Assembly (NCBI GenBank): GCA_020073145.1
Contig: JAIQFS010000001.1
Coordinates: forward strand, 62,001 to 126,000
DNA: 64,000 nucleotides
Direction of reading: 5' to 3'
DNA from: Terriglobia bacterium
GTDB taxonomy: Bacteria > Acidobacteriota > Terriglobia > Bryobacterales > Bryobacteraceae
Shown here: piece after piece, positions 18,153 through 22,799 of the stretch
How positions within the stretch are numbered: position 1 is the stretch's first letter
Layout: each line of letters begins with the position of its first letter
The notes under the pieces: model-generated
What the model was told of the DNA's origin: nothing
Databases searched by the model: none
Seen by the model: the letters and a program-made list of their open reading frames with translations, nothing else
Made by a program: the position numbers and the translations under genes

Positions 18153-18183
18153 AGTCGTGCGCGCTACTTCACGAGGACGGACT

Positions 18184-19632
18184 GTGCTGACACTGATCCG
18201 GAGAGCCCGGCGGCGACTCCTGTACAACGAACTGTTGTCTCAGGGCGCCAATGCCGTCAGCGCCGCCCTCGTCGCCTTCATCCTGCTCCTCCTGCTCGGC
18301 ACCGAGATCCTCAACTGGTACTGGACTTTGCTGATTCCCGCTGCCGCGGTCGCCGTAGCGTTGTATCGCGTGCGCCAACGCCTTCCGCCGCCCTACGTTT
18401 CCGCTCAGATCGTCGACCGGCGCATGGACCTGGCGGACTCGCTCTCCACCGCCATCTATTTCAACGGCCCCGACGCTTCCAAAACTTCGCCCGACTTGCT
18501 CCGTCTCCAGGCCGAGCAGGCCGAACGCATGGCCGCCGGCGTGGATGTCCGCCGCGCCATTCCCTTCCTTTGGCCGCGCACCGCCTACGTCATGGCGGCC
18601 CTGATCCTGGTGGCCTCCAGCCTCTTCGCCCTGCGTTATGGCCTCACCCGCCGCCTCGATCTCAACCAGCCCATGGCCCGCATTCTGCAGCAGGCTCTGG
18701 GGCTGGATCCCACTCAAACCGCTAGCGCGCCCCACAGCAAGAACCTCCGCCTTCCGGACGCCGGTCAGCAGGATGGCGATAACCCCGTGGATGCCGACAA
18801 GCCTTCCGACGATCCCAGCCTCCAGGCCGGCGATCCGCTGGACGACAACAAAGAACCGCAGGACGCCGCCAGCGGCAAGCAGGCCGACAAGAATTCCAAA
18901 GACAAAGACGAGGAGGCCAAAGCCGGCAGCCAGAACGGCGAGGACCAGCAAGGCCAGGGCGAGCCGCGCGCCTCCGACGATCAGAACTCCGGCAAAGGCC
19001 CTGAAAACGAGAAGCAGAATCAGCAGGCCGCCGGCCAGGATCCCAACGGCTCTAGCAACAGTTCCAGCCTCCTCAGCAAGGTCAAGGACGCCGTCAAGAA
19101 CATGCTGTCCAGCATGAAACAGCAGCCCGCCGGCGCTAACTCGCAGCAGCAGAATCAGTCAGCGCAGAACAGCCCGCAGAAGGGGCAGCAGAACGCGGGC
19201 AAGCAGTCGCAGAAGGGCGAAAAGACCAGCGGCCAGGCCGGCGGCGAAGAGCAGGATCCCGATCTGAGCAGCGAATCCCAGCAGGCCGAGAACGCGCCCG
19301 GCAAAGGCGACGATTCCAAACCTTCCAACAAGCAGCCCGGCGGCGGCATCGGCACCCGGGATGGCAGCAAGGACGTCAAAGCGGCCGAGCAGTTGGCGGC
19401 CATGGGCAAGATCACCCAGATCATCGGCAAGCGCTCCGCCACCCTCAGCGGCGAAGCCACCGTCGAAGTCCAATCCACCGTCCAGCAATTGCGCACCACC
19501 TACTCCGACAGCGCCGCGCAGCACGCCGACGCCGGCGGCGACATCGGCCGCGACGAAATCCCCGTGGCCTTGGAAAGCTACGTCCAGCAGTACTTCGAAC
19601 AAGTCCGCAAACAGCCCGCCCCCAAGAAGTAG
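18184..19632 (+). CDS. Membrane protein with long Gln/Asn/Lys-rich low-complexity region
   Basis: I do not recognise a firm family; the layout recalls DUF4175-like proteins. The 482-residue product has a basic start, a hydrophobic hairpin near residues 20-55 (two helices), and a further helix near 125-150 (TAYVMAALILVASSLFALRY). A highly hydrophilic Gln/Asn/Asp/Lys-rich segment covers about 200-400, and a short helical C-terminus includes EQLAAMGKITQIIGKR and YVQQYFEQVRKQP. I prefer GTG 18184 because a GAGG lies about ten bases upstream; an in-frame GTG at 18157 is the alternative. It may be an envelope or coiled-coil scaffold, but the function is unknown. Confidence 0.75.
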   Translation: MLTLIRRARRRLLYNELLSQGANAVSAALVAFILLLLLGTEILNWYWTLLIPAAAVAVALYRVRQRLPPPYVSAQIVDRRMDLADSLSTAIYFNGPDASKTSPDLLRLQAEQAERMAAGVDVRRAIPFLWPRTAYVMAALILVASSLFALRYGLTRRLDLNQPMARILQQALGLDPTQTASAPHSKNLRLPDAGQQDGDNPVDADKPSDDPSLQAGDPLDDNKEPQDAASGKQADKNSKDKDEEAKAGSQNGEDQQGQGEPRASDDQNSGKGPENEKQNQQAAGQDPNGSSNSSSLLSKVKDAVKNMLSSMKQQPAGANSQQQNQSAQNSPQKGQQNAGKQSQKGEKTSGQAGGEEQDPDLSSESQQAENAPGKGDDSKPSNKQPGGGIGTRDGSKDVKAAEQLAAMGKITQIIGKRSATLSGEATVEVQSTVQQLRTTYSDSAAQHADAGGDIGRDEIPVALESYVQQYFEQVRKQPAPKK

Positions 19633-20002: not shown

Positions 20003-21793
20003 CTAGCGCAGCGCCGCCGCCAGTTCCCGGTGCTCGTAGTGTCGCGCCTGTTCCAGCGCCGTGCGGCCTTCGGCGTTGCGGATCGTTCGATCGGCGCCCG
20101 CCTGCAGCAGCGCCCGCACCGCCTCGGCATCCCCGAAGTCGATCGTCGCCGCGTACATCAGTGGCGTGTAGCCGTTCTCGTCGCGGGCGTTCAGCGAGGC
20201 CCCGGCAGCGATCAGAATCGGGATCACCGTCGGCCGATCCGCAATCACCGCCCAATGCAGCAGGTTGATGCCCGTGCCTTCCGTGCCCGTAACCGAAGCC
20301 CCCGCCGCGATCAACGTCTGAACCACGTCGGCGTATCCAAAAGTCACCGCGGCGGCGACCGGCGTGTTGGCCTGCGGGGTGGGTGTTGCCGAAGGATCCG
20401 CGCCATGGGCCAGCAGGAGTTTCACATTGTCCCCATCGCCCGTCAGGGCCGCGAACAACAGCGGCGCGTTGCGCGCGTGAACCCCGGGGCCCGCTTGTAC
20501 CGCCGCGCCGGCATCGAGCAGAGCTCCGACCGCGTCCGCCGTCCCTCGATATGCGGCGGCAATCGTCAGCGCATCGCAGCCGGAAGCGGCCCGTGCCTTC
20601 ACATCGGCTCCGCGCGCCACCAGCAGCCGCACTTTCGCCGCATCGGGCGCGGCCATCATGAGCAGCGTGGTGCCATTCCGCGTTTTGCGATTCACGTCCA
20701 GCCCCGCGTCCAGCTCGGCCGCCAGTTGCCGAGCCGTGCCGAATAGCGCGGTCCGCGTCCACGGTTCGCCCGCGGCGGGTGCCGGCGTCGATGGCGGCGC
20801 GCCTGCTTCCGGCATCGCGCTGAGCAGCGCCATCACCGCCCAGCAACTCCCGGCATACGACAGATACTCGTCCTTCGCATACGGAAACCCACTGGAAAAA
20901 TACGCGGGGCTGATCTGGGCCGGCGAGACCATCCGCGTGCGCACTCGCCAGCTTCCATCGACGGCTTGTGTCCGCAGCAGAAACTGCAGACCCCGCCGCC
21001 AGGCGCGGTCGCTCGCCTCCGCGCCGGATTCGTGCAGAGCGTAGAGCGCCTCGCCCGTCGAGTAGGCGTCTGCCGCGTAGCCGGGCAATTCCGGCCAGCC
21101 TCCCGCCGGCTTGGCAAACGCGATCAGATCCTTCCGTGCGCTCTCGACTTCCGGAGCCGCGGCGCCCGCCCACACCAGCCCCAACAGCCGGAAGGTTGCG
21201 TCTTCCGTGGAAGCCGGATGCGCCGCCACCAGCCACTCGCGCGCCCGCCGGATCGAGGCCTCGCCTTCCGCCCTCGCTTCCTCCGGCAAGTACAGTCGAA
21301 TCGCCCGCACTGCGCTCGCCGTCGCCGTGAACGTGCTGCTCGAGTGTGGCGGCCGGAAATCCGAAGTCACCCAGTGCCCTTCGCGCTGCCATCGCACCAG
21401 CCGCAGCGCGTAGACGCCCGTCGTCAGATCCGCCGCCACCCCGCCCTCGTGCGCCGCCATCAGTAGAAAGCTGTCGTTGGGCGTCGGATCATTGAGCGTG
21501 CCCGCCTGCACCGCTTCGTCCAACGCCGCCGCGCCGCGAAGCGGACGGAACGTCTTCTCCTCCACCGCGCGCAACACCGCCTCATCGATCGCCACGCCCC
21601 GTCGGCGGGCCAGGTGGAGCATCAGGACGGGAAGAATGTTGTGATGGCAGGAAATGCAGGCGCGTTGCGCCACGAATTCCGAAGCCGAACGCTCCAGCAG
21701 TGGCAGCGCCCGCATGACGGCCTGCCGCGCATCCGGTCCCGCCTGCGCGAACGCGCTCTGCGCCAGCAGGGCCAGCCCGATGAGTGAACGCAT
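20003..21793 (-). CDS. Secreted CXXCH / toroid / ankyrin-repeat fusion protein
   Basis: This 596-residue product has a signal peptide (MRSLIGLALLAQSAFAQ) and then a heme-c-type motif CISCH (C46, C49, H50). A long helical region at about 60-330 carries terpenoid-cyclase-like alpha/alpha toroid repeats (RAWRRGLQFLLRTQAVDGSW). About six ankyrin repeats follow from residue 365 on (for example NGYTPLMYAATIDFGDAEAV). The start at 21793 is chosen for the signal peptide; the longer open frame is a shadow of the upstream gene. It follows that secreted gene by 5 bases, so the two are co-transcribed. Heme attachment is inferred from a single motif; the CXXCH could instead bind a metal. Confidence 0.82.
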   Translation of the reverse strand: MRSLIGLALLAQSAFAQAGPDARQAVMRALPLLERSASEFVAQRACISCHHNILPVLMLHLARRRGVAIDEAVLRAVEEKTFRPLRGAAALDEAVQAGTLNDPTPNDSFLLMAAHEGGVAADLTTGVYALRLVRWQREGHWVTSDFRPPHSSSTFTATASAVRAIRLYLPEEARAEGEASIRRAREWLVAAHPASTEDATFRLLGLVWAGAAAPEVESARKDLIAFAKPAGGWPELPGYAADAYSTGEALYALHESGAEASDRAWRRGLQFLLRTQAVDGSWRVRTRMVSPAQISPAYFSSGFPYAKDEYLSYAGSCWAVMALLSAMPEAGAPPSTPAPAAGEPWTRTALFGTARQLAAELDAGLDVNRKTRNGTTLLMMAAPDAAKVRLLVARGADVKARAASGCDALTIAAAYRGTADAVGALLDAGAAVQAGPGVHARNAPLLFAALTGDGDNVKLLLAHGADPSATPTPQANTPVAAAVTFGYADVVQTLIAAGASVTGTEGTGINLLHWAVIADRPTVIPILIAAGASLNARDENGYTPLMYAATIDFGDAEAVRALLQAGADRTIRNAEGRTALEQARHYEHRELAAALR

Positions 21794-21798
21794 GCGCC

Positions 21799-22764
21799 CT
21801 ATTCGCCGGCCTTGTCCTCGGCGCGGCCGCCCCGCAGGACGCCCTCCACCGCGTGATTCCCTTCGTGACAGGCGTACTCGAAAATCTGATAGTCCGGATC
21901 CCGCGTCATGGGAATCGACACTGTCCACGGCTTCGCATACTCGTTCGGATCGTCGATCGTCACTTCGTAGCGGATCGTATTGGCATCGGTGCGCGTAAAC
22001 CGCTCCACCACGTGCAGCGCTTCGCTCTGCGCGATCCCCTTGATGCGCCCGCCGGCCGCGCTGGTTGAGATCCACCCCTTGCCGTTGTAATTCGTGGTGT
22101 CGACCACCAGCGTGTTGCCTTCCCAGTGGCCGCGCGGGTCCCCGTCCCACTGCTTGATCGTGGCCGGCAGGTGCGGCCGCCCGTCCAGCGGAATGACCCG
22201 CACGTTGTGGATCATCTCGTAGTGAATCACCACGAATCCCGGAATCTGCACGATCTCGTAGGCGTTGTTGTAGCCCGCCGGAAACATCGCGCCGGGAATG
22301 CCACGCGTGATGCACCGGTCCCACACGCTCATGTATTCGTACGAATCGGCGTTGTGCGCCAGGTTGAAGTCTCGCCGGGCCTCCGCCTCGGGCCGCACTG
22401 GAACGCGCCCGTCCGCCGGGTCCACCACCAGCGACGTCTGCCGCGTCCCCACCACCTTGGTCCCCGAATCGAACCAGAACTGATTGTAGTTGCCCACGTC
22501 GCCCGCCGTTGGCGGACGGTCTACCCGGTTCTGCGCGGCCCGCTGCTCCAGTTGCGCCGCTTCCTGCTCCGTCAGCACGGCTTTGCCTGCCAGATCGGCG
22601 GGACGTTCAAACGGCGTGATCGTGGGATTCGTCCAGACCCCCTGCAAGTCGGGCTGGCCGTCCGGCGTATGGCCCAGCTTCCAAGCCTTGCCGGAGGGCG
22701 CTTGAGCGGCGGCCGGCAGCGCCAGCAAGAGCGCGCAGAGAAGCGTGCGAAGTCGGAAACTCAC
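21799..22764 (-). CDS. Secreted protein of the PDLQG(V/I)W type, unknown function
   Basis: This 321-residue product starts at GTG 22764 behind an ideal AGGAGG with 5-6 bases spacing, followed by a signal peptide (RTLLCALLLALPAAAQA). The mature N-terminus carries TPDGQPDLQGVWTNPTITPF, a motif I associate with a large paralogous group of secreted acidobacterial proteins without assigned function. Later segments include HYEMIHNVRVIPLDGRPH, GHWEGNTLVVDTTNYNGKGW and VERFTRTDANTIRYEVTIDD. These suggest a beta-rich lipocalin-like or barrel fold. It is first in an operon with the CXXCH-ankyrin gene. The fold and the ligand are guesses. Confidence 0.85.
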   Translation of the reverse strand: MSFRLRTLLCALLLALPAAAQAPSGKAWKLGHTPDGQPDLQGVWTNPTITPFERPADLAGKAVLTEQEAAQLEQRAAQNRVDRPPTAGDVGNYNQFWFDSGTKVVGTRQTSLVVDPADGRVPVRPEAEARRDFNLAHNADSYEYMSVWDRCITRGIPGAMFPAGYNNAYEIVQIPGFVVIHYEMIHNVRVIPLDGRPHLPATIKQWDGDPRGHWEGNTLVVDTTNYNGKGWISTSAAGGRIKGIAQSEALHVVERFTRTDANTIRYEVTIDDPNEYAKPWTVSIPMTRDPDYQIFEYACHEGNHAVEGVLRGGRAEDKAGE

Positions 22765-22799
22765 CGAACCCTCCTGTCGTGAACGCCCACCCAGGGAAG

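Follow-up and report, generated by a model that had tools for sequence, protein, structure and literature searches.

A predicted exported CXXCH-toroid-ankyrin protein of a soil acidobacterium and its PDLQGVW-family neighbor

When two genes for exported-looking proteins lie only a few bases apart, do they form a working pair, or is one of the two of interest in its own right? We investigated this question in a 64,000-nucleotide stretch of a Terriglobia bacterium (contig C21:62001-126000 of genome G000, a genome of 6.32 Mb; hereafter, the window), where two minus-strand open reading frames (ORFs) together span exactly positions 20003-22764. The upstream gene encodes a protein of the PDLQGVW family. 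After its stop codon come 5 bases and then the ATG of a gene whose product joins a CXXCH motif, a toroid and ankyrin repeats (the toroid-ankyrin protein), and the N-termini of both proteins resemble signal peptides. A sequence-only reading of this locus had described the same anatomy, i.e., a signal peptide, a CISCH motif, a toroid, ankyrin repeats and a PDLQGVW partner 5 bases away, all of which our analysis of ORFs, Pfam domains and fold bore out, the signal peptide by inspection. It had gone on to propose a paired function of the two proteins outside the cytoplasm, a proposal that we came to reject. Instead, with a probability of about 0.6, we read the toroid-ankyrin protein as an exported c-type haem protein of a soil acidobacterium, composed of a non-catalytic, terpene-cyclase-like, ring-shaped toroid and an ankyrin docking arm.

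The toroid-ankyrin protein and its relatives

As a single sequence, the toroid gave a weak signal in Pfam (SQHop_cyclase_C, E 3.3e-4, under the curated cut-off). An AlphaFold2 (AF2) model of the whole protein, made from 13 aligned sequences, reached a predicted local distance difference test (pLDDT) score of 84.5 and a predicted template modelling (pTM) score of 0.87. From the CXXCH loop to the linker, this model lists 13 helices, one of them of only 4 residues, which is what an (alpha/alpha)6 toroid should show. In a full-length Foldseek search, the top 50 matches were repeat proteins, nearly all of them ankyrins or designed ankyrin repeat proteins (DARPins), and the toroid emerged only with VIA, where residues 15-330 matched human oxidosqualene cyclase (OSC), bacterial squalene-hopene cyclase (SHC) and drimenyl diphosphate synthase (Z 21.5-23.3), while residues 339-596 matched ankyrin-1 of the PDB over 251 residues (Z 21.8). 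Moreover, a 16-row profile of the toroid family found squalene-hopene cyclase among the PDB chains (E 2.7e-28), and the CXXCH end of the same profile also matched a cytochrome c555 chain (E 4.4e-4). Given the modeled fold, its VIA matches and the family-profile match, the toroid assignment is secure, and the domain is a remote single-domain relative of the class II terpenoid cyclases.

We next compared the toroid across relatives, of which the nearest named ones come from metagenome-assembled genomes (MAGs) labeled Acidobacteria gp5, Bryobacterales and Candidatus Sulfopaludibacter. Once L001, L013, L015, L028, L057 and L033 were set aside as copies or fragments, 37 of these relatives were left. 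For the toroid itself we used 48 rows whose envelope spans 250 aa or more, the window included and the shorter or frame-broken L028, L030, L033, L079, L080/L124 and L085 left out. All 48 carry CXXCH, with C46, C49 and H50 as the only invariant His/Cys set, and none carries the cyclase motif DXDD. Counting ankyrin repeats by a simple motif expression rather than by Pfam, we found 16 rows with the order toroid-ankyrin, 24 with the order ankyrin-toroid, five in which the two parts are adjacent split genes, two without ankyrin, and one (L113) near a contig end, where a single ankyrin-like stretch remains. L080, outside this set, has an ankyrin ORF immediately upstream of its toroid. In a tree rooted on the two ankyrin-less rows (L081 and L082), which sit on a long branch, the 30 ankyrin-toroid, split-gene and contig-edge rows formed one clade (100/100), with the toroid-ankyrin rows outside it. 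One of the five split-gene rows (L032) stems from a MAG named Chitinophagaceae (Bacteroidota); its branch is long and its placement unsure.

Since the toroid-ankyrin fusion recurs in dozens of relatives, it is not a chance event. Furthermore, the link to ankyrins has outlasted both a change in domain order and gene splitting, implying that the two parts probably function together, and this is the best functional clue that we have. The combination of putative signal peptide, CXXCH, toroid and ankyrins, which the sequence-only reading had called unusual, thus turned out to be a conserved design, with an unvarying CXXCH and with ankyrins in both orders and in split genes. The toroid is unevenly spread over the phylum: at E 1e-25, 10 of 297 sampled genomes have it (our own counted), and a search of plasmids for it gave no match.

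Nine of the 24 ankyrin-toroid proteins bear a second, N-terminal CXXCH, and the three of these nine that were scanned against Pfam (L010, L043 and L078) all matched PSCyt1 (PF07635), a domain that the window's protein does not match even at an E limit of 1. A paralogue in our own genome (L010/L108, G000:C79:24030-40962) has the order PSCyt1-ankyrin-CXXCH-toroid, with two CXXCH motifs, and adjoins two pyrroloquinoline quinone (PQQ) dehydrogenase genes and a cytochrome c gene.

The haem reading and its rivals

A c-type haem is the natural reading of the toroid's CXXCH, given that the motif is invariant, that DXDD is missing and that three places in our own genome score above the PF01578 (cytochrome c assembly) cut-off. 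In the mechanism that we propose, the toroid-ankyrin protein would be exported to the periplasm, and the CXXCH at the start of its toroid would covalently carry one c-type haem. Lacking DXDD, the toroid would no longer act as a cyclase and would serve as a haem scaffold. The ankyrin arm, whether fused on either side or supplied by an adjacent gene, would dock the haem domain onto a periplasmic partner, and the role of the whole would most likely be electron transfer or redox sensing. The PSCyt1 fusions, together with the PQQ dehydrogenase and cytochrome c neighbors of the L010/L108 paralogue, are hints of such a redox setting.

Several observations weigh against this proposal. Among the 48 rows we found no conserved second axial ligand (Met or His, as in class I cytochromes), the best column being Met321 (29/48); hence, the haem need not be a classical low-spin one for electron transfer, and sensor or enzyme roles are possible. 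PF01578 is widespread (9 of 14 control genomes), so that its presence in our own genome is no more than permissive. We also considered PQQ dehydrogenase as a conserved partner of the toroid in a survey of neighbors at 46 of 47 loci (L101 being without a called toroid gene), and rejected it: it lies within four genes in 6 of the 46, which is not clearly above a background of ~3 of 46 estimated by hand from the matches listed, and can be taken as a hint only. Five of these six loci were checked by Pfam and two are from one genus; PQQ dehydrogenases are, besides, common in these genomes, with at least 42 matches in our own. Other neighbors recur in five loci at most. Periplasmic ankyrins, for their part, could provide stability rather than docking. 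Lastly, L081 and L082 are distant CXXCH toroids (CFSCHNNGD) for which the motif count gave no ankyrin in the same or nearby ORFs; they are possibly an ancestral or sister form of the toroid.

What else, then, could the protein do? The main functional rival is haem handling, in which the protein would be an exported haem carrier or a catalase/peroxidase helper, in the manner of AnkB with KatB in Pseudomonas or Cj1386 with KatA in Campylobacter. Bacterial ankyrin proteins are indeed reported to be tied to haem catalases (AnkB/KatB, PMC2830190; Cj1386, PMC11442138). Yet a covalently bound haem would make a poor carrier, and no catalase was seen among the few neighbors scanned, for which no catalase profile was run. 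To our knowledge, moreover, neither AnkB nor Cj1386 has a toroid or a CXXCH haem-c motif, and we regard the haem-handling role as unlikely. We assign a similarly low likelihood to the view that CXXCH holds no haem at all but coordinates a metal or forms a disulfide, the terpene-cyclase-like toroid then being part of a protein for binding or scaffolding. The lack of an invariant distal ligand would suit such a site, and the haem is read from sequence; however, C-x-x-C-H combined with export and Ccm-type genes is a textbook c-haem setting, the His varies no more than the two Cys, and the three scanned relatives bear an N-terminal cytochrome domain too. That the protein is an active, exported terpenoid cyclase with ankyrin repeats is scarcely credible: its fold and profile resemble those of SHC/OSC, but DXDD is absent from 48 of 48 toroids and the single toroid follows a signal peptide.

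A more specific version of the haem protein with a docking arm can also be imagined, a new class of exported c-type haem proteins in which the toroid has turned into a haem-c domain whose coordination site is open and faces, or lies near, the old hydrophobic cavity. Outside the cytoplasm, such a protein might sense or oxidize a hydrophobic substrate (a quinone, a hopanoid or a terpenoid), and the ankyrins, retained whether fused, reversed in order or split off, would be its docking partner. We offer this idea as a speculation and consider it rather doubtful.

The PDLQGVW gene and its family

We then turned to the upstream gene and asked whether it forms a conserved two-gene unit with the toroid-ankyrin gene, the two being co-transcribed and acting together outside the cytoplasm. 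Their common strand and 5-base gap suggest that they may be co-transcribed, and the signal-peptide-like N-termini of both products would fit a joint function. Two further loci could be cited in favor: a toroid on contig C1 of our own genome is followed two genes later by a PDLQGVW gene of the same orientation, and a toroid fragment (L033) has one at a distance of ~4 kb in the opposite orientation. However, in 47 other toroid loci, 44 of which extend 500 bases or more beyond the start of the ORF, a PDLQGVW gene was directly upstream in none, and in flanks of up to ~8 kb it occurred in just three, namely, the C1 locus, a locus in G001 where it is the adjacent gene, on the other strand, and one in G003 where it is 5.6 kb off. 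(This set omits the window, the duplicates L087, L125 and L126, and L028, L030, L033, L079-L082 and L085; in the available flanks of L028, L030, L079-L082 and L085 we found no PDLQGVW gene.) The opposite view gave the same result, as none of 15 close PDLQGVW relatives in other genomes (54-72% identical) had a toroid in flanks of up to 1.5 kb. In the sister genome G002, close relatives of both genes are present on separate contigs, the toroid-ankyrin one on C32 (63%) and the PDLQGVW one on C190 (68%).

The PDLQGVW family has 131 matches in our own genome, or ~125 places after joining; adjacency to one copy therefore says little, and at ~1150 bases per gene the chance that a given neighbor gene belongs to the family is ~2%. 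Most simply, the arrangement in the window is a local one, in which the two genes are neighbors by circumstance, and a conserved two-gene unit is very improbable. The paired function had been put forward on the understanding that a pairing not conserved elsewhere would refute it, and the pairing fails from the toroid side and from the PDLQGVW side alike. A PDLQGVW gene at L113:7159-7983 stands tail to tail with an opposite-strand toroid gene, with ~20 bases between them.

As for the family itself, it was detected in 34 of the 297 phylum genomes at E 1e-30. The window's protein had no match in Pfam, NCBIfam or the PDB, the last searched by profile, and its AF2 model, made from 4 sequences, was poor (pLDDT 50.8). 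The likeness of this model to a calycin-type barrel of the fatty-acid-binding or lipocalin-like kind (FABP5, Z 8.2; best Foldseek E 6.1e-3) is too weak to build on. In viral contigs, a search for relatives returned no PDLQGVW, a DNA pattern gave two usable matches plus a short end fragment, and a further pattern gave nothing new. First-look candidates, which are not scored matches, number 111-183 in five genomes of genus g1 (G000-G004), whereas the range is 3-17 across 11 further genera belonging to the same taxonomic family. Another genus of that family, g28, has 83 and 148 such candidates (profile query), and the expansion is thus patchy and not confined to g1.

While characterizing this family we came upon a different association. 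Of 14 PDLQGVW regions of our own genome, hand-picked around strong or clustered copies rather than at random, 9 have a gene of ~140 aa from one family nearby. All six copies scanned matched DUF6152 (PF19649), a domain of unknown function. Across our own genome, 35 of 49 DUF6152 genes have a PDLQGVW gene no more than 1 kb away, which for 33 of them shares their strand; ~2.7 would be expected at random. In six other genomes, 27 of 30 DUF6152 loci (the best 30 of 86 listed) have PDLQGVW within 1.5-kb flanks, 26 of them on the same strand. The reverse view is weaker: DUF6152 is within 1 kb of 41 of the 125 PDLQGVW places, and most PDLQGVW genes, including that of the window, stand without it. Of the 15 close relatives in other genomes, 8 have it in their flanks of up to 1.5 kb. 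A model built from 8 own-genome copies found no DUF6152 in the window, the nearest copy being ~65 kb away. All 16 aligned DUF6152 rows have an A-HH junction after the signal peptide, followed by A/S-F, as well as an invariant NPH; one copy outside these rows reads HHEV. The mature protein probably begins with His-His, a start that, along with NPH, leads us to suggest a copper His-brace. The PDLQGVW-DUF6152 association is a testable lead in its own right.

Table 1. Positions of the features at the locus, and example loci of the PDLQGVW-DUF6152 association
Feature	Position	Strand	Remarks
PDLQGVW-family exported-looking protein, 321 aa	21799..22764	-	GTG start at 22764; stop 21799-21801
AGGAGG, ribosome-binding-site-like	22770..22775	-	5 bases upstream of the PDLQGVW-gene GTG; read from sequence
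CXXCH-toroid-ankyrin protein, 596 aa	20003..21793	-	ATG at 21793; relatives 48-66% identical
Putative signal peptide MRSLIGLALLAQSAFA-Q	21743..21793	-	by inspection; position kept in orthologues reaching the N-terminus
CISCH, putative c-type haem attachment motif, residues 46-50	21644..21658	-	C, C and H invariant in 48/48 toroids
Predicted (alpha/alpha)6 toroid, residues 19-330	20804..21739	-	AF2 model, VIA structural matches, family profile
Ankyrin repeats, residues 339-596	20006..20779	-	Pfam Ank_2 E 7.2e-27; PDB ankyrin-1 Z 21.8
PDLQGVW-DUF6152 example loci	own genome L130:4659-6136, L133:5443-6992; other genomes L141-L170		

Elsewhere in the window, positions 18157-19632 encode a protein of 491 aa whose N-terminus resembles a membrane helix and whose long middle part is of low complexity and rich in Gln, Asp and Ser; its best Pfam match reaches only E 0.15.

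Relation to known systems

In the open-licence literature, approached from the angles of squalene cyclase, CXXCH and c-type cytochromes, we did not find the toroid-ankyrin design described, and we found nothing there on PDLQGVW or on DUF6152. The toroid-ankyrin module is an unnamed variant assembled from known parts, and the novelty lies in this module and not in its pairing with PDLQGVW. If the haem is real, the module would bring to c-type haem a fold with which it is not usually associated, and would clearly explain why free-living bacteria export ankyrin repeats. Our results also correct a tempting error, that of reading function into adjacency with one of ~125 PDLQGVW places.

Four known systems invite comparison. 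The window's PDLQGVW protein is a member of the same family as that found in the PDLQGVW-DUF6152 (PF19649) pairs, but has no DUF6152 beside it in the window. AnkB-KatB and Cj1386-KatA share with our reading the idea of an ankyrin protein working with a haem protein, as reported in PMC2830190 and PMC11442138, and the title of a work cited in the former describes AnkB as periplasmic. They differ in their catalase link, which did not appear among the toroid neighbors scanned, no catalase profile having been run. The planctomycete-type cytochromes with PSCyt1 compare in that ankyrin-toroid relatives bear an N-terminal PSCyt1 (3/3 scanned), whereas the window's protein has no PSCyt1 match and its CXXCH sits within the toroid. 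With SHC/OSC and drimenyl diphosphate synthase (PF13243, PF13249), the protein has the (alpha/alpha)6 toroid in common (Z 21.5-23.3; profile E 2.7e-28). In contrast to these enzymes, it has a single toroid, is without DXDD, and adds an invariant CXXCH, a putative signal peptide and ankyrin repeats.

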